Below, one piece after another: positions 20,713 through 36,064 of a stretch of 64,000 bases of DNA. The translations under genes and the position numbers were made by a program. Every line of letters starts with the position of its first letter. Positions within the stretch are counted from its first letter, which is position 1. The notes beneath the pieces were generated by a model. The model made no database searches. It was not told the DNA's origin and saw only the letters and a program-made list of their open reading frames with translations. Origin of the DNA: Candidatus Acidulodesulfobacterium ferriphilum (lineage in GTDB: Bacteria; SZUA-79; Acidulodesulfobacterales; Acidulodesulfobacteraceae); contig SGBD01000001.1 in assembly GCA_004195035.1 (NCBI GenBank), positions 62,001 through 126,000 of the forward strand. The letters are read 5' to 3'.

Positions 20713-21114
20713 TTAGGCCTTTAATAATTTAATTTTTATAAAATTTTTTATCTCGCTAAAATGCTTGTCTAAAGTATATATTGCGCAGTTATTCTCCATA
20801 GCCATAATAGATATATAACAATCTATAAGATTTACCGTTTTCCCGTTCTGTTTCATAGTAAAAGATAATTTTCCGGCTTTTATCCATGTGCTGCCTGCAT
20901 TATCTATAATATAAAATGCATCTAAAAATTCCTCTATAACCAAGACCTCTCTTTCCGATTTCGAACCCTGTATAAGCTCGGCTATCACCACTTTAGGCAC
21001 GTAAATATCGTTTTTGGCAAGAATTAAATCCATAACCTCAACGACAGCGGCATTTTGTTTTTTAAAATAATCTATCCAGATGGAAGTGTCTATTAAGATT
21101 TTTTCATCTTTCAT
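20713..21114 (-). CDS. vapC: PIN-domain ribonuclease toxin (VapC)
   Basis: 133 aa, ILIDTSIWIDYFKKQN at the N-terminus (first Asp), VAELIQGSKSERE (Glu) and LIDCYISIMAMENNCAIYTLDKHF (later Asp residues): a standard VapC. The start overlaps the RHH antitoxin stop by 11 nt. It differs in partner class from the two AbrB-paired PIN genes at 8.3 and 10.1 kb. Confidence 0.9.
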   Translation of the reverse strand: MKDEKILIDTSIWIDYFKKQNAAVVEVMDLILAKNDIYVPKVVIAELIQGSKSEREVLVIEEFLDAFYIIDNAGSTWIKAGKLSFTMKQNGKTVNLIDCYISIMAMENNCAIYTLDKHFSEIKNFIKIKLLKA

Positions 21115-21301
21115 AATGCCTTATTTCGTCCGCGGTCATATCGAATTCAAGTTTGCCTTTTAAAGATTGAATTTTCTCTATTTTCTTTTTTTTAAGATAA
21201 GACTCGATGGCTATTTTCACGGCAGAGGCTTTGCTTTTTACATGAGTTTCCCTAATTAAGTCATCTATTATATCTTTATCTATCGTGATTGTTGTGCGCA
21301 T
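21104..21301 (-). CDS. vapB: Ribbon-helix-helix antitoxin (VapB, DUF2191-like)
   Basis: 65 aa from ATG 21301: MRTTITIDKDIIDDLIRETH, the RHH strand and first helix, then SKASAVKIAIESYLKKKKIE. A longer frame from 21355 adds 18 residues with no family match and overlaps the operator, so it is rejected. Autorepressor of the pair. Confidence 0.88.
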   Translation of the reverse strand: MRTTITIDKDIIDDLIRETHVKSKASAVKIAIESYLKKKKIEKIQSLKGKLEFDMTADEIRHYER

Positions 21302-21341
21302 TACTATATACCTTATACATTTACTTGTTTTATAAAATATG

Positions 21342-21386
21342 CATAATACATGCACAATTATAAATTATTTTTTGTGCAAATGTCAA
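21342..21386 (-). promoter_or_regulatory. VapBC promoter with palindromic operator
   Basis: On the minus strand: TTGACA (21386-21381), 18-nt spacer, TATAAT (21362-21357), then the palindrome TGCATGTATTATGCA over the predicted start of transcription. This layout suits RHH autorepression. Confidence 0.75.
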
Positions 21387-21428: not shown

Positions 21429-23432
21429 TTAAAAAGAAAAAGGGACAGGATCAGTAAGTTTATTCGTAGCGCCGACGAGGCTTTTCTTTTTTAATTTAAA
21501 GGGTCTATTAACCGTCCAGAAGTATTTTCTGTCCGCCTTGTGTTCCTTGCTTTGATATAGCGCGTCGTCGGCATACCGCAGGAGAGTGTCGGCTGTAACG
21601 TCATTATCTATATGGCAAATATGTACACCCATGCTCAGGCCTATCGTAACGGTTTTACTTTCCGAAAGCGCAACCGGAACGCGGACGCTTTCTTCGATTT
21701 TATTAAATATGGGAATTAAGGATTTAATATTTTTACAGTCTTCTATTATAACAGCAAATTCATCTCCCCCGATTCTTGCAATGAAGTCGGTTTTGCGCAA
21801 AGAGTCCCTTAACCGCTTTCCTATAATCTGAAGAACGGTATCGCCGGCTTCATGTCCATAGGTGTCGTTTACGGGTTTGAAACCGTCCAAATCTATCATT
21901 CCTACCGCAGTCTGCCAGTTCTGCCGCATAGCCCTTGCTATAGTTTTTTCCAGTTCGTCTGTGAGGGCGCGGCGGTTTGGCAAACCGGTAAGCGCGTCGT
22001 AAAACGCCGCAATCCTGAGTTTTTCCTGACGTATAAGCATATTCCGCTGGGACTCTATTTTTTCTAATGCGTAAGCAACGTCTAACTGAATTTCTTCGAG
22101 AAGGTTCATGCGTTCTTCCCCTGCGCCGACCCTTATGCCGCCCCAGTGTTTTCCGTCTATGAATACAGGAACGCCGATATCGCTCATAACCTCGCCGGTA
22201 TCCCTCTCATAAGTCTGGATGATAAACCTGTCCGTATTTTTCGCCGCCGCCAAACCGACAGGATCATCGAAAATCCTCATCGAACGGTTGCCATAAAGGT
22301 CTTTTTTGTAATCGCCGGTTAAAGGCTGGTCGTTAATACCGTTGTGCGCGGCAACATAGCCGTTGTTATCCGTTAAAACGAAAAACCTGAAATTAGGGTT
22401 CATCCTTAAATATTTATCTTCTATAGGCTGGATCCGATTTTTAACGAAGGAACTGAAACGGGTTTTATATTTCTGAGGATTAGTATCGCGGACGGGAATA
22501 TAATTTCTGTCCCATATATAGGAAGAAGATATTTCTCCGGAGTTTATAGCCGTTTTTATTACGCTTGAAATCTCTTCGGCGCATAAATTTGCAAGTTCTA
22601 TTATCTCGTCTATTTTGTTTTCGCTGGACACATTCTGCATGGAATCCATAAGCAAAAATATATATTCAACTTTATCGTTTTTTAAAATCGGTATCGAACA
22701 GACGGAGTTTATATTAAATCTTTCGTAATAATCGTGCAATGCTCTTGAAGCAGAGTCTTTCGACGCGCCGGAGACAAGGCTGATTTTTTTGCTTGCATAG
22801 GCTCTTGCTACCGAACCTTTACCGTAAGGCGTATCCGGATTTACCCCTATGATAAGAGACATTATACCGTCTTCATGTTCTTTAGTTTTAGCCTTTGCGT
22901 ATTTTTGTTTAAAAAGGTTAAAATCGTCGACGCATCCTACGACTGCGGCATCGTATCCGACGATATCTACAAAAATATCGCATATTTTGCGCAGAAGAGT
23001 TCCTTCGTCGGACACCCTGACTATTATCTGGTTTATTTGGCTTGTAAAAAGAAAGAGCCTTTCGTAAAGTTTCTCTTGTGCTTTGTCTATTCCAATCGCA
23101 AGCCCAGCCGGTTTATTTTCGTAAAAAACCGTGTAAGTCGACACAGAAATAGGTATTAATGAATTTTTTTTTGTTTTAAAAATATAATATGCGTCTTCTC
23201 TTGTGAATTCTTCCCCGTTAAGCCGCCTAGATATATAAGATTGAATTTTTTCTTCGGGATTTAATATAAAATCTATAAAATTTTTGCCGATAAGTTCTTT
23301 AGCGTCATATCCTAAAATTTCCGCAAAATGCCGATTTATATAAATTATTCTGCCTCCTTCGCCGTATACAAAATATCCAAAATACATGGAACTACTTAAT
23401 ATTTCAAGCAGAGAATCGGAAGAATTTAGCAT
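21429..23432 (-). CDS. PAS-GAF-(MCP-type sensor)-GGDEF diguanylate cyclase
   Basis: 667-aa soluble protein predicted to make cyclic di-GMP. Order: PAS (about 5-115, GYFVYGEGGRIIYINRHFAE), GAF (about 125-285), a module starting [20 protein letters not shown] and ending KHWGGIRVGAG that is known from the C-termini of chemoreceptors (a Cache-like output partner), then GGDEF with DALTGLPNRRAL, active-site RIGGDEFAVI and an RKTD five residues before GGDEF, which fits the RxxD inhibitory site. It is therefore likely an active, product-inhibited cyclase. It is divergent from the polysaccharide locus that begins 380 bp away, which suggests a regulatory link. No transmembrane segment is seen. Confidence 0.88.
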   Translation of the reverse strand: MLNSSDSLLEILSSSMYFGYFVYGEGGRIIYINRHFAEILGYDAKELIGKNFIDFILNPEEKIQSYISRRLNGEEFTREDAYYIFKTKKNSLIPISVSTYTVFYENKPAGLAIGIDKAQEKLYERLFLFTSQINQIIVRVSDEGTLLRKICDIFVDIVGYDAAVVGCVDDFNLFKQKYAKAKTKEHEDGIMSLIIGVNPDTPYGKGSVARAYASKKISLVSGASKDSASRALHDYYERFNINSVCSIPILKNDKVEYIFLLMDSMQNVSSENKIDEIIELANLCAEEISSVIKTAINSGEISSSYIWDRNYIPVRDTNPQKYKTRFSSFVKNRIQPIEDKYLRMNPNFRFFVLTDNNGYVAAHNGINDQPLTGDYKKDLYGNRSMRIFDDPVGLAAAKNTDRFIIQTYERDTGEVMSDIGVPVFIDGKHWGGIRVGAGEERMNLLEEIQLDVAYALEKIESQRNMLIRQEKLRIAAFYDALTGLPNRRALTDELEKTIARAMRQNWQTAVGMIDLDGFKPVNDTYGHEAGDTVLQIIGKRLRDSLRKTDFIARIGGDEFAVIIEDCKNIKSLIPIFNKIEESVRVPVALSESKTVTIGLSMGVHICHIDNDVTADTLLRYADDALYQSKEHKADRKYFWTVNRPFKLKKKSLVGATNKLTDPVPFSF

Positions 23433-23813: not shown

Positions 23814-24146
23814 ATGAAAAATATAGAACAAATATTAAAAAAATTATTTTATAGAAAAGAGGTGGCCGAGCTGTTAGATAATACTGCGAATGTTTTAGAT
23901 GCCCGTTTATTAATATTAGGCGATAAAGGTAATATTTTAGCAAATATTGGAAGAACCGGTTTAGGGGCGGATATTTGTATGGGTTATCCTGTAGTGGTAA
24001 ACGGCGAACGGATAGCGTTGATTAAAGGAAATAAAAATGCGGCCGTTGTCGCAAATTTTATAAATTATATTGTCGGAATGGAGTTCGACAAAAGAGATTT
24101 GATAGGCGAAACCCTAAAGAGGTATAAGGAAATAAATCTTTTTTAA
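23814..24146 (+). CDS. Stand-alone N-terminal sensor domain related to the enhancer-binding protein at 38365
   Basis: 110 aa, soluble. Its whole length aligns with residues 1-110 of the regulator at 38365-40194: LKKLFYRKEVAELLDNTANV against LKKFFKKKENSALLDSIINL, then VVVNGERIALIKG against IKIDGEEIGRVSG, and the shared end ETLKRYKEINL against EILQKYKEYDL. It stops exactly where the GAF domain would begin, and the bases after the stop show no GAF sequence. It could be a free ligand-sensing domain or the remnant of a regulator. It is the first gene of the polysaccharide locus. No strong Shine-Dalgarno is visible. Confidence 0.7.
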   Translation: MKNIEQILKKLFYRKEVAELLDNTANVLDARLLILGDKGNILANIGRTGLGADICMGYPVVVNGERIALIKGNKNAAVVANFINYIVGMEFDKRDLIGETLKRYKEINLF

Positions 24147-24204
24147 GATTATCTTAAAAAGATACAGGATGTTAAAGGGGATTAAAAATTAAAAAGGATA
24201 GAAA

Positions 24205-25098
24205 ATGAAAGGATTAATAGCTTTTAATAGAAAGGAGACTTGTATTATACCGGTCATTGAAAAATATTTGACGATAAAATTTAAATTTACAGGTTTGGTA
24301 ATTGCGCTGTTCATCATTATTTTTTCTATGTTTTCGTTTTCCAAAACTGTTTTTGCCGGCAAAGTTTCATCCGATAATCAAAGGATCGACGTGGGCGCTT
24401 CTTACTATTTTCTCGAGCCGCATGGAATCTATGGTTCATGGTACATCGGCACCGTGAAGTATTATAATAATTCTATTAAAAAATTCAATTATTTTATCGA
24501 AGCGGACGGATTTTCAAGAACAATAGAGGGTAAAGGCTTACTTGGAACAATCGGCGCTTACACGATTTGGACGCCCTGGCTTTACACATACTCCGATATT
24601 TCAAGCGGTACCAATTATCTTTATTTGCCTGAGTTTAGAGCAGACAATAATTTTAATTTTAAACTCGGCAAAAATAAAAATATTGTTTGGGAAATAGGCG
24701 GGTCATACATAAAATATAACGATAATAATTTAAATCTGATAGCTTCCACCGGGCTTACCTATTATTATAAGCGATGGATAGCAAGCTACCGCTTGTTCAG
24801 GGTTATCAGCGATCCTGGCAATGTTGTTTCATGGTCTCATCTTTATTCCATAGGTTACGGAAAACGTTATTGGGAGAGGACATACCTTAATGTAACTACC
24901 GGAAACGAGGCATATTTAACGACATACCTGCCGGTACGGTATCAAAGCGCCGTAAATTATAATGCTCTGAATATAGAAATACGCCAAAGGATATGGCTAA
25001 AAAAAGATTTTGGAATTATAGGAAAATTGGACTATTTTATTCTTCAAGGTAATTATAGAGCTTACGGAATAAGTATAGGTATTTTTAAAAACTTCTGA
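24205..25098 (+). CDS. YaiO-like outer-membrane beta-barrel protein
   Basis: 297 aa. A long basic N-region and a hydrophobic helix end in TVFAGKV, a signal-peptidase-like site. The mature part alternates hydrophobic and polar residues and is rich in Tyr/Trp (GSWYIGTVKYYNNS, YYKRWIASYRLF, RTYLNVTTGNEAYL) and ends with a terminal Phe after IGIFKN, as barrels do. It resembles the YaiO family, which is found beside polysaccharide synthases; this is judged from motif texture, not an alignment. Likely role: a barrel for polymer exit or anchoring. Shine-Dalgarno AAAGGATAGAAA precedes the ATG. Confidence 0.6.
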   Translation: MKGLIAFNRKETCIIPVIEKYLTIKFKFTGLVIALFIIIFSMFSFSKTVFAGKVSSDNQRIDVGASYYFLEPHGIYGSWYIGTVKYYNNSIKKFNYFIEADGFSRTIEGKGLLGTIGAYTIWTPWLYTYSDISSGTNYLYLPEFRADNNFNFKLGKNKNIVWEIGGSYIKYNDNNLNLIASTGLTYYYKRWIASYRLFRVISDPGNVVSWSHLYSIGYGKRYWERTYLNVTTGNEAYLTTYLPVRYQSAVNYNALNIEIRQRIWLKKDFGIIGKLDYFILQGNYRAYGISIGIFKNF

Positions 25099-25138
25099 TT
25101 AATATTAATAGTTAATAATAGATGAATAATAAACAGAC

Positions 25139-25927
25139 ATGAAAACAGACACGATAAAAGATACTATTTACTACCACAGGGCATACAGAAAGGAAACGTT
25201 TTCCAAAAAAAAAGTTTTTTGGGAAAGCATAGGTCTTTTATCGCCTGTTTTATTGGTGCTATTTCTTTATCCAGCCATAACCCTTTATATATGTAGGTTT
25301 TCTATATTTATTCTTTCCAAATACTTTATCAATGGAAAAATTGGGATATTAAAAAGCCATTATATTTTCTCAAGCTTATATATAGTTTCTATGTATTCGC
25401 TCTTTCATTCGCCGCTATTTTATTTAGTGTTTTTTTTATTTTCTATTTTAGCTCTCTTAATTATGTTTCTTTTTATAAAGACGCATATTTTTAAGCCGGT
25501 TTTTTTATATTTAATGTATATATTATTAATAAACGCGATATCTTCGGCGTTTTTTGTCCTTGTCCCGTTCAAATTTCCATATGACCTTACGACATTTTCA
25601 GATTTATACATAAAAACTGAAGTGGCAATATGGTTTTTTATACCTGTTATTCTTGCGATGGCATTAGTTCCTTTACCGTCCAATTTTTTCATAAAATTTT
25701 TAGTTTCCATTGCCGTATTAATTTATTCCGTGATATTTGGCGTTATTCGGTATATTTTATTTTTATATATACTGCAAAAATTTTCTTTTGTATTTATGGC
25801 GGCGCTTTTTTTTGCTTTTGGTCCATTAGTTGATTTTTTATATATAGTAGGCATCTATTCTTATTATTTTAGTACGGTAGCAGAAAAAAATAAAAACTAT
25901 GCAGGAGAAGGACAATGGTTGTACTAA
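25139..25927 (+). CDS. Polytopic inner-membrane protein of unknown function
   Basis: 262 aa with about seven or eight hydrophobic segments (SPVLLVLFLYPAITLYI, LYIVSMYSLFHSPLFYLVFF, AIWFFIPVILAMALVPLP, VSIAVLIYSVIFGVIRYILF and others) and short charged loops. I recognise no family motif. It ends 13 nt inside the glycosyltransferase gene, so the two are coupled, which suggests a membrane partner of the synthase, for example a pore or export component. Confidence 0.7.
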   Translation: MKTDTIKDTIYYHRAYRKETFSKKKVFWESIGLLSPVLLVLFLYPAITLYICRFSIFILSKYFINGKIGILKSHYIFSSLYIVSMYSLFHSPLFYLVFFLFSILALLIMFLFIKTHIFKPVFLYLMYILLINAISSAFFVLVPFKFPYDLTTFSDLYIKTEVAIWFFIPVILAMALVPLPSNFFIKFLVSIAVLIYSVIFGVIRYILFLYILQKFSFVFMAALFFAFGPLVDFLYIVGIYSYYFSTVAEKNKNYAGEGQWLY

Positions 25928-27198
25928 TTATTGCGTTAAAAATTTATATGTTATTTGTGATATTTGTTATGGTGATTTATGCATTAAGGCATAACTTTTT
26001 TACGTTTAACAGGGTGTTCGGCGAACAAAAGATGTATTATCAGGATATAATAGATTCCGAATTTACGATGATATCCGTTATGATTCCTATGTATAACGAG
26101 GAAAAGACGGCATCCCATATATTAGATCTATTAATAAAATCGGATTATCCTATGTCAAAAATAGAGATAATACCTATAGATGACCGCTCTACCGATAAAA
26201 CAAAAGAAATAATCGATTCTTACGCTTTAAAATATCCATTTATAAAGCCGATTCACAGGGAAAGCGAAAATAGGGGTAAGGTGCCGGCCATTAACGAAGC
26301 ATTGAATATAGCAAAGGGTGAAATAATACTGGTTTTTGATGCGGATTATCTTCCAGGGAAAGGCTTATTAAAGGATTTAACGGCCGCTTTTAAAGACCCT
26401 AAAGTCTGCGGTGTAATGGGGAGGGTGATGCTTATCAATACCGGCAAAAATTTGCTTACCCGCATGCTCGATTTGGAGAGAACAGGCGGTTACCAGGTGG
26501 ACCAGCAGGCAAGGTATAATCTTGGTCTTATCCCGCAATACGGCGGAACCGTAGGAGGTTTCAGAAGAGAATTAGTAATTTCTATAGGCGGATTTGACGA
26601 AAAAATTCTTGCGGAAGACACTGAGCTTACATTTAATTTATTTATTAAGGGATGGGATGTAGCTTACGCCAATCGTTTGGAATGTTATGAAGAAGCGCCG
26701 GAGGAATGGAGGACAAGGGCAAATCAGATTAAAAGGTGGTCAAGGGGGCATAACAGGGTTATGTTTAAATATCTTATACCGGTTATAACAACAAAACATT
26801 TGAATTTTTATCAAAAGTTAGACGGGGTTCTTTTGCTTTTCGTATATTTTATTCCGGTTATTTTTTTATTGGGTATATTAGATTCTATCGTATTATTTTT
26901 TATGGGCGAAATGAATATAACAAACTATGCAATTATATATTTATTAGTAGGCGGGTATGTAACTTTTGGAAGCTTTGCTCCTTTTTACGAGATAGGAATC
27001 GGCGCTTTTTTAGATAGAACCTCATACAGAATGCGCCTATTGCCTTTTTTCTTTTTTATTTTTGTTTTTAATGTGTGGTTTATCTCGCAGGGTTTTATAG
27101 AATCGGTTATCGATGTTATAAGCTTAAGAAAAGTTACATGGCATAAAACAAAACGCTACAGAAAAGAGCCATCGGTGCAGGAGGCGGCAGCAAAATGA
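25915..27198 (+). CDS. Processive family 2 glycosyltransferase (polysaccharide synthase)
   Basis: 427-aa inner-membrane synthase. GT2 motifs in order: VMIPMYNEEKTASHIL, IPIDDRSTDKTKEI (nucleotide-sugar Asp), VFDADYLPG (DxD-like), GGFDEKILAEDTELTF (catalytic base ED) and QIKRWSRGHNRVM (Q-x-x-RW of processive enzymes). One N-terminal helix and three C-terminal helix regions (LDGVLLLFVYFIPVIFLLG onward) fit a PgaC/BcsA-like layout. No PilZ domain, so cyclic di-GMP would have to act through another protein. UDP-HexNAc is a reasonable donor because a UDP-GlcNAc 2-epimerase lies in the locus, but this is inference. Confidence 0.88.
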   Translation: MVVLIIALKIYMLFVIFVMVIYALRHNFFTFNRVFGEQKMYYQDIIDSEFTMISVMIPMYNEEKTASHILDLLIKSDYPMSKIEIIPIDDRSTDKTKEIIDSYALKYPFIKPIHRESENRGKVPAINEALNIAKGEIILVFDADYLPGKGLLKDLTAAFKDPKVCGVMGRVMLINTGKNLLTRMLDLERTGGYQVDQQARYNLGLIPQYGGTVGGFRRELVISIGGFDEKILAEDTELTFNLFIKGWDVAYANRLECYEEAPEEWRTRANQIKRWSRGHNRVMFKYLIPVITTKHLNFYQKLDGVLLLFVYFIPVIFLLGILDSIVLFFMGEMNITNYAIIYLLVGGYVTFGSFAPFYEIGIGAFLDRTSYRMRLLPFFFFIFVFNVWFISQGFIESVIDVISLRKVTWHKTKRYRKEPSVQEAAAK

Positions 27199-28235
27199 AT
27201 TTTATCATATTAATTTTAATATTTGCGTTTTTTATCTTTTTACCTTTTCTTCCCGGCATTATAGAGCTTTTAGCGCCGTTGGACAATAAACCTCTGCCCG
27301 TAAAAATGGACTACTCCAGAGACGCACGGTATTTTGGCAGGTCGTTCAAGAAAATCTTGAAAGATTCGCTTAAAAAAGCGGGGTTTCAAAAAGGTACGGC
27401 GGAAATAAAATTATCTTCCGGTTTAGAAAAAATCGAAATGATATACTCCGATTTTAATTCCGATAAAAAAAATTTAGACCGCATTCTGTTAATATCCGGC
27501 AATTTAATTACCGGACACGCTGATAATTTTAATAAAGAAATTTTCGTGGAAGGCAATGCGTCGTTCGGAAATAATAGCATTATTCGTGCGGCAGCGGTAA
27601 CTAAAGATGTAGAAATAGACGATAACTCAAAAATAATGAGGTGGCTTGATGCTAACGGCAGAATTAGAGCCTGTGAAAACACTTATCTTGGAATAAGCGC
27701 CACTTGCGGAGAAGAGTTTCAATTGTCTAAAGGCTGTAAATTCAGACGGCTTCTCGGCAATCCCATTTTAACGTTGAAAGACCCATCCTCCGTTGATCAC
27801 GGCTTAGCGGACAACGGAAGGTTTGACATTAACAACGCGTCCATTTCAACTACTTTAAATGAAATAATAAATGAGGACATGAGATACGATGAACCTGTCT
27901 TGATAAACGGGAACCTTATAATAAACGGGAACCTTGATATAAATAGCGAATTCACCATTAATGGGGATATAAAGGCAAGCGGAAATATAACTATAAAAAC
28001 TTTAAAAAATGTTAATATTTTAGGAAATATAATATCCGATAGCATAATAACAATGGCGGGCAATATAAAAGTCGGCGGGAACATATTTTCCCAGGAAGAG
28101 GTTTACCTGGAAGGCGTGGATGTAGGAGATATTAATAAACTAAAGTCGGTAATAGCAAAAAAGAAATTGAACCTTGGCAATAATGTTACGATTTACGGTT
28201 TTGTTCTTACGGAAGGGATAGGGACCGTCGTGTAG
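27195..28235 (+). CDS. Membrane-anchored bactofilin-like beta-helix protein
   Basis: 346 aa. A single N-terminal membrane helix (FIILILIFAFFIFLPFLPGI) is followed by two polymer-forming regions: about residues 90-140 (LLISGNLITGHADNFNKEIF) and 220-346 with repeating short strands LINGNLIINGNLDINSEF, GDIKASGNITIKTL, GNIISDSIITMAGNIKVGGN. Such G-N/I-x-x-G repeats form the right-handed beta helix of bactofilins and polymer-forming cytoskeletal proteins. Starts in ATGA overlap with the glycosyltransferase stop. A membrane-tethered scaffold that positions the synthase is a reasonable inference. No known family is a full-length match in my reading. Confidence 0.68.
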   Translation: MNFIILILIFAFFIFLPFLPGIIELLAPLDNKPLPVKMDYSRDARYFGRSFKKILKDSLKKAGFQKGTAEIKLSSGLEKIEMIYSDFNSDKKNLDRILLISGNLITGHADNFNKEIFVEGNASFGNNSIIRAAAVTKDVEIDDNSKIMRWLDANGRIRACENTYLGISATCGEEFQLSKGCKFRRLLGNPILTLKDPSSVDHGLADNGRFDINNASISTTLNEIINEDMRYDEPVLINGNLIINGNLDINSEFTINGDIKASGNITIKTLKNVNILGNIISDSIITMAGNIKVGGNIFSQEEVYLEGVDVGDINKLKSVIAKKKLNLGNNVTIYGFVLTEGIGTVV

Positions 28236-28356
28236 TTATCTGCTTGCTTGTTTGCCAAAAAATTAAATTATTACCGTGCAGGATATAACAGGATATAAAT
28301 ATGCGGCGGTAGTCGAAAAAATACTTTTAAAATTGTTTTGAGCAGAGGAAAAAGGA

Positions 28357-30306
28357 ATGAAAAAGATAACTGTTATATTAATCTTCATTTTAACGATATT
28401 GATCGCGGCGCCCATCATTTATTACGGCTATAATCGGGTTGAAAAATACAAAATCTTTTCCACGGATAAGAATATAAAGGTCTTTTTGGTATATGGCAAC
28501 AAGTCCAAAAATGCATACGATTTATCTATTTTATCCGCTTATAAGAGCGCTTTAAAAATAGAAGGAGTTCCTTGCAGGACGATAAGTTATTCCGACCTCA
28601 TATCTTTCGACCCGCTTTCATTAAGTAAAAATATGCCTGCGGTTATATTTCCGGATGCGGCAGACGAAGAACTCCCTTCCTCAATGGAATTTTGGGTAGA
28701 GAACTATTTAAAAAATGGCGGAAATGTCGCAGTTATTTTTAATGCAGGAATAAAAACCAAAGAAGGCCTATATCTAAAAAAGGGTCTGTTCTCAAAGATT
28801 ATCGGTTTGAATTATGAGCTATACGGCAAAATGAGGGGTAAGTCATATGTAGTTTCTTTGTTAAGATTTAAGAATATGGATAGTATTAATTTTTTTAATA
28901 TATTGGAAGGAAATACAATGGACAATTTTCTGAGCGGGTATATGTACGGGCCGCTCTATTTCCCTGTGGCGTATACCGCGGCAGGACCAAGGTTAAAGGC
29001 TAAAAACATATATGCTTACGGTATAGAACGCAACGATAAAAAAACGCTTAAATTTCCTTCTTACCGGCAAATAAACGATACATATATCACAAAAAACAAC
29101 ATAAAAAAATTCCCCGCAATTGTTTTAAAAAAATATGGCAGAGGACATATTTTATATATTGATATGCAACTAGGCTATCTGAAAGCATATGCCTCAAATG
29201 GATCTTTAATGCGGGCTTTTATCAGGACATTCCTGTTTAAGATAGTAAAGATGCCTCACTTGGTTTACACGCCTTACGGAAAAGGCGGATTGATCGTAAA
29301 CTGGCATATAGAAAACTATCTTGTCAGCAAAAGCATTCCATATATGATAAAAAACCGTATTCTTAGAAAAAACCTGAAATATTCGTTTGATATATCGGCA
29401 GGAAGTTTCGAAGATCGCCCCGGGGATGGAAGAGGCGTAGGCGCGTGCGGGAAAAATAGGCCTTATATTAAGATGTTATTACCCTACGGAACAATAGGCA
29501 CGGACGGCGGGTGGACACATAACTATTGGTATAAGCGTGTTTTAAGCGGAAAATTTGGCGAAAAGCAGATGTATCATCTTATCAAAAAAAACAATAATTG
29601 TTTACAAAGCATATCCGGTTATAAGATAACAGAATATATGCCCGCTCAAGGAGTTTTTCCTCAGCCGGTATCGACCGAAATCTTATCGAAGTTAAGAATG
29701 ATAGCAAATTATTACACTGGAAGCATTGGTTCCGGACCAACGAGGGTTTTCTGGAACGGCAAGATGGTTTCCCGTAAAGTTATAGCGTTTCCGGTATCGA
29801 TAGACGGAAATATAGCATCTCTTTATGAATTAAGGCGCTACGGCCATATGTCAAATGCGGAAGTATTAAACTGGCAGAAAGGCTTAGTAAATCACTGCAT
29901 TAGAAATAAAGATATCAGGCTATGGTATTCACATCCTTACGATATACATATGTATCATTACTTGAAAGATATGAAGGCTTTTACCGATTATATAGAAAAA
30001 AAGCAAAATGAAGGCAAGCTGATTGTCAGACCTATGGCCTATTTTGCCAAGTTTATATTGAGATTTTTAAAAACCAAATATTCTTTTATGTCCTCAAAGA
30101 ACGGCTCTATTACTTTATTCATAAAAAACAAGGAAGGACTAAAAGGAATTACGGTTGCCCTACCGAAGAATTTAGTTAGAAAACCGGCCGACAGTAACGC
30201 TTATAAAATTGACGAAGGAAAGAATTATTATTATTTAGCTTTTACGGGAGATTTAAATGAAGATATTGTTCATTTTAGGCATATTAGCGGCACTGACGGT
30301 TCTTAA
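28357..30306 (+). CDS. Membrane-anchored polysaccharide-deacetylase-like protein
   Basis: 649 aa. Residues 1-25 form a membrane anchor or signal (KKITVILIFILTILIAAPII). Residues about 45-300 look like a glutamine-amidotransferase-like/flavodoxin-like layer (VFLVYGNKSKNAYDLSILSA, AVIFPDAADEE, GRGHILYIDMQLGYLKA). About 310-560 resembles a diverged deacetylase barrel: GGLIVNWHIENYL, LPYGTIGTDGGWTHNYW and WYSHPYDIHMYHYL with His/Asp pairs, as in CE4 or DUF2194-type proteins. A small beta domain ends the protein. PgaB- or PelA-like trimming of the polymer in the periplasm is inferred. Good Shine-Dalgarno (GAGGAAAAAGG). Confidence 0.6.
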   Translation: MKKITVILIFILTILIAAPIIYYGYNRVEKYKIFSTDKNIKVFLVYGNKSKNAYDLSILSAYKSALKIEGVPCRTISYSDLISFDPLSLSKNMPAVIFPDAADEELPSSMEFWVENYLKNGGNVAVIFNAGIKTKEGLYLKKGLFSKIIGLNYELYGKMRGKSYVVSLLRFKNMDSINFFNILEGNTMDNFLSGYMYGPLYFPVAYTAAGPRLKAKNIYAYGIERNDKKTLKFPSYRQINDTYITKNNIKKFPAIVLKKYGRGHILYIDMQLGYLKAYASNGSLMRAFIRTFLFKIVKMPHLVYTPYGKGGLIVNWHIENYLVSKSIPYMIKNRILRKNLKYSFDISAGSFEDRPGDGRGVGACGKNRPYIKMLLPYGTIGTDGGWTHNYWYKRVLSGKFGEKQMYHLIKKNNNCLQSISGYKITEYMPAQGVFPQPVSTEILSKLRMIANYYTGSIGSGPTRVFWNGKMVSRKVIAFPVSIDGNIASLYELRRYGHMSNAEVLNWQKGLVNHCIRNKDIRLWYSHPYDIHMYHYLKDMKAFTDYIEKKQNEGKLIVRPMAYFAKFILRFLKTKYSFMSSKNGSITLFIKNKEGLKGITVALPKNLVRKPADSNAYKIDEGKNYYYLAFTGDLNEDIVHFRHISGTDGS

Positions 30307-31186
30307 TTTGGGTTTAGTTTCCGGGCGTGCGGCAGCCGCCTCCTGCAATAACCCTGCTTTGACGTTATGGAGCAGGTTTTATAATGTAAAAATAAAAAGC
30401 AACAAAAAATATTATATTGATCCATACACCGACAATGTAATAGCGTTATATTTCCTAAAAAAAAATAAAAATACCGGAATTATAAAAGACTATATACTAT
30501 GGTACTTTAAACATCTTAACTATCCCGATAAATTTGGTCTTACAGGAACAATGTACGATTATATTATATCTAAATCGGGATGCATTGAAAGACCTGCAAA
30601 TACTTACGATTCGGCGGACAGTTATGCCGCAACTTATATTATGGCGGTTTATAAATATTATAAAAAAACCAAAGATATCAAGATGCTTAAATACATATCG
30701 TCAAAATTAAAAGATGTCGCTTATATTATCCCTTATTTGCAGACCTCTAACAACGGACTTATAAAAGCTTTGCCGGATAAAGACGAAGAATACCTTATGG
30801 ATAACTGCGAAGATTACGGAGGCGTGAAAGCATATCTTGGCCTTTTGGAAATAACAGGGGAAAAATCCGGTAAAGAATTTAATTATTACGAAAAACTAAA
30901 AAAATCAATAAAAGCGGCTATCATAAAAAATCTTTATAACCGCCGCAGAAATAACTTTGACTGGGCTATTATAAAAGGCAGGAAACGTTATTCGAACTGG
31001 TTAGTTTATTATCCCGATGCGCTTGCCCAATTATTTCCCATTTTATACGGCATTACGGATCAATCTACCGTATCGGCAAAATTTTTGTGGAATAAGTTTA
31101 AATCTATTTATAGGAAAAAAACAGGACCGTTTCCTGCCGAACAGAAGGCCTTATATTTTTTAACCAAAGAAAAAATAAATAAATAA
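30257..31186 (+). CDS. Secreted alpha/alpha-barrel (GH8/GH88-like) putative glycosidase
   Basis: 309 aa with a Sec signal (ILFILGILAALTVLNLGLVS...AAAASCNN). The mature part is helical with aromatic and acidic motifs spaced as in six-hairpin glycosidases: YIDPYTDNVIALYF, DSADSYAATYIMAVYKYY, MDNCEDYGGVKAYLGLLE and NWLVYYPDALAQLFPIL. The start overlaps the previous gene by 50 nt with GGGAG upstream, so the two products are made together. By analogy with BcsZ (GH8) a polymer-cleaving role is likely. Family membership is not certain. Confidence 0.6.
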   Translation: MKILFILGILAALTVLNLGLVSGRAAAASCNNPALTLWSRFYNVKIKSNKKYYIDPYTDNVIALYFLKKNKNTGIIKDYILWYFKHLNYPDKFGLTGTMYDYIISKSGCIERPANTYDSADSYAATYIMAVYKYYKKTKDIKMLKYISSKLKDVAYIIPYLQTSNNGLIKALPDKDEEYLMDNCEDYGGVKAYLGLLEITGEKSGKEFNYYEKLKKSIKAAIIKNLYNRRRNNFDWAIIKGRKRYSNWLVYYPDALAQLFPILYGITDQSTVSAKFLWNKFKSIYRKKTGPFPAEQKALYFLTKEKINK

Positions 31187-31234
31187 ATAAAATTTTATAA
31201 ATAATATATCAAAGATATATTAAAGGAGGATTAA

Positions 31235-32413
31235 TTGCCAACAAAATTATTATTTATTTTAGGCACCCGTCCCGAAGCTATTAAATTAGCACCGCTAATA
31301 CTCAAATCAAAAGAAGACGATTGTTTCGATGTAAAAGTATGCATAACCGGACAGCATAAACAAATGCTTGAACAAGTTATAAACTTTTTTAATATAAAAA
31401 TAGACCATGATTTTGAATTGATGAAACCCAATCAATCGCTTTTTAATATAAGCGCGGATATTTTAAAAGCTATCGAACCTTTAATAGAAAATGAAAAACC
31501 GGACTTTATAATTGTTCAGGGAGATACTACAACAGCGTTTATCGGAGCGATAGCCGGATTTTATAAAAAAATAAGGGTAATTCATTTAGAAGCCGGTTTA
31601 AGAAGCCATGATAAATATTCTCCATTTCCGGAAGAGATGAACAGGATATTAATAAGCCAAATCGCAAATTACCATTTTGCGCCAACTAAAAAAGCAAGCG
31701 ATAATTTATTCGACGAGGGGATAAAAGACAACGTTTATATAGTCGGCAATACCGCCATAGATGCCCTATTGTTAGGCCTTGATTTAATAAGAGAAAAAGG
31801 TGATAAAATATATAAGGAGTTTTTTAATTTTTTAGATTTTTCTAAAAAAATAATTTTGGTAACGGGGCACAGAAGGGAAAGTTTCGGAAAAGGGATTGAG
31901 AATATATGCGAAGCCTTAAAAGAAATAGCAATCCAGCGCAAAGATATTCAAATAGTATATCCGGTTCATCTTAATCCTAATGTAAGCGGTCCGGTATATG
32001 ATGCATTGAAAAACGTTGCAGGCGTATTTTTAATGGAACCCTTGGAGTATCAATATTTAATATGGCTTATGAATAAATCGTTTTTAGTGCTGACGGATAG
32101 CGGCGGCATACAGGAAGAGGCGCCTTTTTTAGGAAAACCGGTTATCGTCATGAGGGATTCAACGGAACGTATCGAAGCCGTAGAAGCCGGCGTATCGGTG
32201 CTTTCCGGTGCTCATAAAGATATAATAGTGGAAGAAACTGTTGACTTGCTTGACAATAAATTAAGATATAGAAAAATGGGAAGGCAGGTTAATATATATG
32301 GAGACGGTAAATCTTCAGAAAAAATAATCAGTATTTTAAAAGAAAAACATAATTGCATATTGGAAAAATCTTTTTTGAAGCCCCAACATGTATCTTTAAT
32401 CCAGCGATTTTGA
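31235..32413 (+). CDS. wecB: UDP-N-acetylglucosamine 2-epimerase (non-hydrolysing)
   Basis: 392-aa cytosolic enzyme that makes UDP-ManNAc from UDP-GlcNAc. The start is TTG at 31235 with AAAGGAGG seven bases upstream. Motifs: [61 protein letters not shown] and [17 protein letters not shown]. The last 20 or so residues ([15 protein letters not shown] end) go beyond the usual C-terminus and abut a decayed chemoreceptor gene on the opposite strand, so they may be of rearrangement origin. Last gene of the polysaccharide locus; it may supply ManNAc for the polymer. Confidence 0.92.
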
Positions 32414-35463: not shown

Positions 35464-35778
35464 ATGGAATTTAAATGGGATGAGGCTAAAAATAACTTAT
35501 TAAAATATACTAGAGATGTTTGTTTCGAGGATATTATACTTGCTATAAATCAAGGCGGCTTACTCGATATTATACGGCATAAAAACCAACGTAAGTATCC
35601 GGACCAACTAATTTTTGTCGTAGAAATTAATGAATATGCCTATTTAGTTCCCTTTGAAATAGAAGATAATTTAACTGAAAATAACAAATGTGCAATCGTT
35701 TTTTTAAAGACGGTAATTCCAAGTAGAAAAGCTACAAATAAATATTTAAGAGGAAATAAAAATGAGAAAGAAAAATAG
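35464..35778 (+). CDS. BrnT-like toxin
   Basis: 104 aa beginning MEFKWDEAKNNLLKYTRDVC, like the F-x-W-D-x-x-K-x-x-x-N start of BrnT (RelE-fold ribonuclease toxins), and ending in VFLKTVIPSRKATNKYLRG, comparable to the IISARKA-x-K end of BrnT. The antitoxin gene starts 17 nt before its stop. It might instead belong to a sister family of toxins paired with CopG-type antitoxins. It is probably translated from a leaderless mRNA. Confidence 0.62.
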   Translation: MEFKWDEAKNNLLKYTRDVCFEDIILAINQGGLLDIIRHKNQRKYPDQLIFVVEINEYAYLVPFEIEDNLTENNKCAIVFLKTVIPSRKATNKYLRGNKNEKEK

Positions 35779-36064
35779 CAAGTTAGCCGGCTTGATTGAC
35801 CTTGACGAGTATGAAAAAAAAATCCTGGAAGATTACGAAAACGATAAATATGAAAGCGTTGAAAATTTGTCCCGCGAAAAAGCCAGATTTAAAAAATTAG
35901 CCTCCGGCTTTATACAAAAGAAAGCAAATATAAGCATCAGGATTTCTAAGCAAGATATCCTGAAAATAAAACGCAAAAGCCTTGAGACCGGCATTCCTTA
36001 TCAGACGCTTATATCGTCCGTTCTGCATCAATTTGCCCAGAATAAAATAACTATCAAGACTTAA
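35762..36064 (+). CDS. CopG/BrnA-type ribbon-helix-helix antitoxin
   Basis: 100 aa. The C-terminal RHH is ANISIRISKQDILKIKRKSL followed by GIPYQTLISSVLHQF, the usual form in antitoxins of this class. The N-terminal half (DLDEYEKKILEDYENDKYES) is acidic and should neutralise the toxin. Shine-Dalgarno AAGAGGAAATAAAA lies in the toxin's 3' end. Confidence 0.82.
   Translation: MRKKNSKLAGLIDLDEYEKKILEDYENDKYESVENLSREKARFKKLASGFIQKKANISIRISKQDILKIKRKSLETGIPYQTLISSVLHQFAQNKITIKT

Follow-up and report, generated by a model that had tools for sequence, protein, structure and literature searches.

A likely synthase-dependent exopolysaccharide system of two-membrane bacteria that combines a membrane glycosyltransferase, a beta-helix protein, a deacetylase-like protein and a YaiO-family barrel

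Synthase-dependent exopolysaccharide systems were surveyed in 2020 for five polymers, in a text that mentions neither YaiO nor bactofilin (PMC7112194), and the Nfr glycan joined them in 2021 (PMC8669469, PMC8669472). In the Nfr system of Escherichia coli, NfrB, NfrA and YbcH act with WecB to make the NGR exopolysaccharide, the receptor of phage N4 (PMC8669469, PMC8669472). In this work, we analyzed a locus within a 64,000-nucleotide stretch of the genome of Candidatus Acidulodesulfobacterium ferriphilum (contig SGBD01000001.1, positions 62,001 to 126,000; hereafter the window, to whose first letter coordinates refer unless another locus is named). An earlier note, made from the DNA letters, had proposed here an undescribed synthase-dependent exopolysaccharide system of eight same-strand genes acting together: a free sensor domain, a YaiO-like barrel, a polytopic membrane protein, a processive GT2 synthase, a membrane-anchored bactofilin-like beta helix, a deacetylase-like protein, an alpha/alpha-barrel hydrolase-like protein and WecB. 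This proposal survived tests by profile, predicted fold and gene neighbourhood, with one change to its membership: the system comprises seven genes, which are conserved together, and the first of the eight is not a conserved member. We consider it likely that these seven genes encode a conserved synthase-dependent exopolysaccharide system of two-membrane bacteria, the product being deacetylated and probably based on N-acetylmannosamine (ManNAc). The case is strong for a synthase-dependent system and moderate for ManNAc as the product sugar.

The seven genes lie on the plus strand and encode a YaiO-family outer-membrane beta-barrel (24205-25098, 297 residues), a polytopic inner-membrane protein (MP; 25139-25927, 262 residues), a membrane glycosyltransferase (GT2; 25915-27198, 427 residues), a protein with an N-terminal membrane helix and a beta-helix (BHX; 27195-28235, 346 residues), a membrane-anchored, probably periplasmic deacetylase-like protein (DAC; 28357-30306, 649 residues), a putative (alpha/alpha)6-barrel glycosidase-like protein (AAB; 30257-31186, 309 residues) and the UDP-GlcNAc 2-epimerase WecB, with a TTG start (31235-32413). 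The eighth open reading frame (23814-24146) precedes them on the same strand. Gene positions had been given exactly by the earlier note, as had the overlaps of 13 nucleotides between MP and GT2, 4 between GT2 and BHX, and 50 between DAC and AAB. When the proteins of the locus were compared with Pfam (matches at E <= 1) and with NCBIfam at its curated cut-offs, MP, DAC and AAB matched no family in either library.

The grouping is far beyond chance, given that phyla remote from each other have these genes together on a single strand. Among 99 related genomes searched with DAC, seven carry it, and in one of these, which belongs to a distant family, DAC has the same neighbours; a contig scan with a five-row DAC alignment gave 56 loci from about a dozen phyla by record titles: Aquificota, Negativicutes (Sporomusa malonica, Phascolarctobacterium faecium), Sulfurovum, Elusimicrobia, Firestonebacteria, Nitrospirota, Zixibacteria, Cloacimonadota, Acidobacteria/Holophagae, Aminicenantes, Dictyoglomus, Eremiobacterota and Betaproteobacteria (Chromobacterium, Aquitalea). 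Most of these loci are metagenome bins, for which single taxon assignments may be wrong, and several come from isolates. According to profiles built from the loci, the usual order is MP-GT2-BHX-DAC-AAB, preceded or followed by YaiO and often also by WecB. Membership was counted in the 25 loci with sufficient flank: (i) MP, GT2, BHX and DAC are present in all 25, a count that for DAC, the search bait, holds by construction and that includes the pair of GT2 and beta-helix protein for which a neighbourhood search had been proposed, and MP always adjoins the core, (ii) the YaiO barrel adjoins the core in 23, (iii) AAB is present in 14, or in 20 if one counts six loci from Betaproteobacteria in which a distant homologue takes its position, and (iv) WecB is linked in 14. 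One well-flanked locus has a gene on the opposite strand, and in the flanks of the loci no neighbour beyond the seven genes was recurrent across phyla. All seven genes also occur on the Cupriavidus P-10 megaplasmid pMTS1, and further whole-genome carriers agree with the gene set, one of them rearranged. Pairwise distances of the five core proteins correlate with each other (r 0.82-0.91) and with those of WecB (r 0.62-0.78), values reached in 0/200 permutations in both cases, with statistics that, like those on WecB co-occurrence given below, ignore relatedness. In a 386-genome sample, DAC occurred in 6/30 genomes of the window's family and in 5/~356 others (about 1.4%).

The GT2 protein matches PF00535 with 99 bits, has hydrophobic stretches at both ends and carries the motifs DAD142, ED234 (AED233) and QIKRW271. 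The processive motifs DxD, ED and QxxRW are kept in 56/56 system GT2s, in agreement with its earlier description as a processive synthase, and we propose it as the polymerase. The best named model, among 30 NCBIfam matches, is PgaC_IcaA (TIGR03937), at 137 bits vs a cut-off of 422; the protein is also below cut-off for CelA/BcsA (TIGR03030, 70 vs 699 bits), NodC and all other NCBIfam equivalogs. Judged by sequence, the system GT2s form a distinct subfamily, because the score across 61 genomes drops from 716 bits inside the system to 123 outside it. In the GT2 tree, which had eight outgroup rows and is limited by two badly placed ones (L082, L085), six outgroup rows cluster (96/98) apart from the system; a single origin of the system GT2s is compatible with this tree, short of a formal demonstration. 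Three members stand among other lineages in it (L020, L044 and L055: a Nitrospiraceae member inside Negativicutes, and Thermodesulfovibrionales and Dictyoglomus bins among Aquificaceae), likely through operon transfer between phyla or mis-binned contigs. Against defence-system models, the sole match at the locus was a weak one of GT2, which was rejected as spurious.

Next to the synthase, MP has hydrophobic segments, in line with the polytopic membrane protein of the earlier note, and is conserved in 25/25 loci; it shows no similarity to PgaD or YbcH, and we propose it as the synthase partner. For BHX, the membrane helix and the beta-helix stood, and the bactofilin label was dropped: the protein reaches 18.0 bits against PF04519 (cut-off 27.9; 22.2 bits for a Cupriavidus relative), and in profile comparison with the PDB it resembles many beta-helix proteins about equally, with LpxD, GlmU and acetyltransferases (E 1.8e-5 to 1e-3) scoring better than bactofilin 6ria (E 0.014). 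BHX is probably cytoplasmic and might conceivably act as a scaffold for the synthase.

Assignment of the barrel to the YaiO family is clear (TIGR04390, 91.6 bits, cut-off 32; PF19413, 80.5 bits, cut-off 23.9), as the earlier note had it, and no TPR match was found in Pfam or NCBIfam. We propose this barrel as the export pore. In two Negativicutes (Acidaminococcales) loci without YaiO, a protein of about 600 residues directly follows AAB (L046:12629-14425; L048:7814-9664). By eye it consists of a coiled coil and then a barrel, and it has no family match; such a protein at the place of YaiO would fit a need for an exit through the outer membrane.

The structure predictions called for in the earlier note were made for DAC and AAB (AlphaFold, pLDDT 90.5 and 92.6), and the folds uphold the deacetylase-like and alpha/alpha-barrel hydrolase-like labels. 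By Foldseek, DAC matches ArnD (8t0j, E 2.1e-10, target-normalised TM-score 0.66) and another deacetylase, and its remainder the trimerisation domain of GH42/GH164 enzymes, fused, as far as domain order can be read from the model, as an N-terminal GATase/GH42-trimerisation-like part and a C-terminal NodB/ArnD-like part. The positions H317, D/E319, H/D383, H388 and H526 are each conserved in 42/43 sequences, and a Chromobacterium relative (L068) passes PF01522 (25.1 vs 23.1 bits). We regard DAC as a candidate deacetylase of the ArnD/NodB type; it has no profile similarity to PgaB. Tandem DAC-like genes occur in L026, L028, L032, L036, L037, L043 and L048 (Firestonebacteria, Aminicenantes and Cloacimonadota loci), and in L048 the pair of DAC and AAB is doubled. 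The best Foldseek match of AAB is the invertase InvA (5gop, GH100; E 2.6e-5, query-normalised TM-score 0.58), followed by GH78, GH116, GH94 and sugar epimerases. AAB starts with a signal peptide, several relatives have a lipobox in the alignment, and D118, D121, N183 and E185 are invariant. No glycoside hydrolase family could be assigned to it by Pfam profiles, and a part in trimming the polymer is conceivable. Among the profiles named by the earlier note, PF00535 and TIGR04390 matched, PF04519 did not, PF01522 was passed by the relative L068 and not by the window protein, and membership in DUF2194, GH8 or GH88 was not borne out, none of the three being among the Pfam matches at E <= 1.

The identity of WecB is firm (TIGR00236, 450 bits, cut-off 210), as expected from the earlier note, and the window copy is the only one in this 97%-complete genome. 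Of the carriers whose locus contig has no wecB, 20/21 have it elsewhere, the exception being the metagenome-assembled genome G115; the background, sampled in genomes of other families that lack the system, is 37/69 (binomial p 4e-5). Inside the window's family, WecB is present in 4/6 system carriers vs 2/24 non-carriers (Fisher p 0.007), and in the two carriers without it the locus ends at a contig edge before the wecB place. UDP-ManNAc is most likely the donor, as far as gene content can tell, because WecB has its only copy here and accompanies 20/21 of the unlinked carriers. The same WecB argument was applied to E. coli NfrB by Junkermeier and Hengge (PMC8669469), and Sellner et al. found that, of the enterobacterial common antigen pathway, only WecB is required for E. 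coli Nfr (PMC8669472). A branch to N-acetylmannosaminuronic acid is conceivable since a single gene for a nucleotide-sugar dehydrogenase, unlinked to the locus, is present in the genome, and a mixed polymer would be compatible with the co-occurrence tests too.

The same system could also polymerise UDP-GlcNAc into a PNAG-like (poly-N-acetylglucosamine-like) or chitin-like chain, WecB serving another glycan or tuning precursor levels. PgaC_IcaA being the nearest named synthase model (137 bits), the 28% identity to PgaC by blastp and the 11/25 well-flanked loci with unlinked wecB would fit such a product. We nevertheless hold it to be unlikely, since GT2 stays far below the PgaC cut-off and WecB, linked in the other loci and single-copy in the window genome, is present in the unlinked genomes well above background.

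If the donor is UDP-ManNAc, the proteins may be placed in the following order. WecB would convert UDP-GlcNAc to UDP-ManNAc; GT2 and MP, held by the membrane-anchored BHX, would assemble the polymer at the inner membrane and deliver it to the periplasm; there, the anchored NodB/ArnD-type DAC would strip N-acetyl groups and AAB would trim or clear chains; and the polymer would leave through the YaiO barrel. A partly de-N-acetylated poly-N-acetylmannosamine, that is, a cationic mannosamine polymer, with a cytoplasmic beta-helix protein as the scaffold of its synthase and a small TPR-less YaiO as its exit, is a version of the proposal that we advance tentatively, the odds being somewhat against all of its parts holding together.

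A secreted polymer is itself open to challenge, as the locus might make a modified glycolipid or lipid-linked sugar, with GT2 adding one or a few sugars, the ArnD-like protein deacylating and the barrel being an outer-membrane enzyme. The best fold match of DAC, ArnD, does act on an undecaprenyl-linked sugar, GT2 enzymes of similar membrane layout act on lipids, and the pore function of YaiO is unproven. However, the ED and QxxRW motifs are universal among the system GT2s, a PNAG synthase is the best of their NCBIfam matches, and a separate glycosidase-like periplasmic protein together with an outer-membrane barrel suits a polymer better, which makes a glycolipid quite improbable.

Several points weigh against the exopolysaccharide system proposed here. 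The system is described from genes, profiles and predicted folds, and the bait count and the relatedness-blind statistics are to be read with the limits given above. The window DAC matches no Pfam family directly and has Asp at position 383, where most relatives have His. AAB is missing in several loci that have the rest of the set (Sulfurovum, Calescibacterium-like, Holophagae) and is thus accessory. WecB also supplies other glycans and is linked in no more than 14/25 loci. Finally, we know of no proven export role for the YaiO family.

The free sensor domain of the earlier note (23814-24146, plus strand) is not a system gene: it has 42% identity to residues 1-115 of a 461-residue HD-GYP protein upstream of YaiO in the sister genome L009, and a full-length GAF-HD-GYP protein occupies the same place in L009 and L010, with the HD-GYP motif intact in L009 (HHERHDGKGYP). 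The window copy stops at YKEINLF, with a short trace only thereafter, and is probably the remnant of a truncated GAF-HD-GYP regulator, left as its stand-alone N-terminal module. As a candidate conserved part it was rejected, its profile having drifted to unrelated sensors. The GGDEF gene is, as had been noted, divergent from the locus (21429-23432, minus strand); it encodes a PAS-GAF-GGDEF diguanylate cyclase (PF00990, 146.9 bits) with the GGDEF motif intact. A possible regulator, it is present in few other loci and was rejected as a conserved neighbour. The HD-GYP remnant and this divergent gene hint at control by cyclic di-GMP, in the window's family only. Further out, a VapB/VapC toxin-antitoxin pair lies at 20713-21355 on the minus strand (PF09957, PF01850), and at 35464-36064 on the plus strand a small gene and, after it, one for a CopG/BrnA-like antitoxin resemble a BrnT/BrnA pair, with both scores just below cut-off.

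If the proposal is right, the operon would extend the synthase-dependent set by a further class of polymer, one that has synthase, deacetylase and trimming-enzyme families to itself and is present in many deep-branching and environmental lineages and in culturable bacteria. It would also give the uncharacterised YaiO barrel family its first working context, and the deacetylase and glycosidase-like families could become tools against biofilm polymers.

We found no name for this gene set in the Pfam and NCBIfam libraries or the open-licence literature, and no description of it there under poly-ManNAc polymers or operons with bactofilin and exopolysaccharide genes, so that the label undescribed stands. 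That it is a diverged form of pga, bcs, pel, alginate or nfr is very improbable: roles do run parallel to pga and nfr, but GT2 fails every equivalog cut-off, DAC, MP and YaiO lack similarity to their PgaB, PgaD or YbcH, and NfrA counterparts, GT2 resembles NfrB in fold only, and profile searches found no TPR, PilZ or MshEN domain. The parallel drawn by the earlier note with pga, bcs and pel therefore holds for roles and not for parts, and its list omitted the closest functional parallel, NfrB/NfrA/WecB, as well as the yai locus. With bcsABZC and Pel, the system shares the logic of synthase, membrane partner, periplasmic glycosidase and outer-membrane pore, whereas no PilZ, BcsB, GH8, PelF or PelA match was found in Pfam or NCBIfam. 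With pga, it shares a GT2 synthase, a small membrane partner, the proposed periplasmic deacetylase and hydrolase functions and an outer-membrane barrel; however, the two enzymatic functions would reside here in separate proteins unrelated in sequence to PgaB, the barrel is a TPR-less YaiO instead of the TPR-barrel PgaA, MP is unlike PgaD, and BHX and WecB are added.

The likeness to Nfr lies in a membrane GT2 with DxD, TED and QxxRW motifs and an outer-membrane partner (PMC8669469, PMC8669472), in the dependence on UDP-ManNAc from WecB, shown for Nfr and presumed here, and in the linkage of wecB to the nfr operon where the genome has no other copy. In contrast, NfrB carries MshEN, which the window GT2 lacks, and the two cannot be aligned beyond the fold; NfrA combines TPR with NfrA_C, YbcH is a DUF4434 protein, and neither a deacetylase nor a beta-helix or alpha/alpha-barrel protein belongs to Nfr.

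A second parallel is the yaiS-yaiP-yaiX-yaiO locus of E. coli, on which no functional study was found in the open-licence literature. Nearly all E. coli carry yaiO; in K-12 MG1655 (L072:3570-8117) IS2 interrupts yaiX, and in FORC_041 yaiX is intact and yaiS truncated. YaiP is 26% identical to the window GT2 over 213 residues, the two YaiO proteins share the family model without a blastp match, and YaiX, a hexapeptide transferase, has a weak, repeat-type similarity to BHX (hhalign probability 76) and was rejected as its homologue. The deacetylase differs, and the yai locus has no MP, AAB or wecB. Nevertheless, a YaiO barrel stands there beside a GT2, a deacetylase of the PIG-L type and a beta-helix (hexapeptide) protein, so that yaiS-yaiP-yaiX-yaiO looks like a smaller system of the same GT2, beta-helix, deacetylase and YaiO composition.

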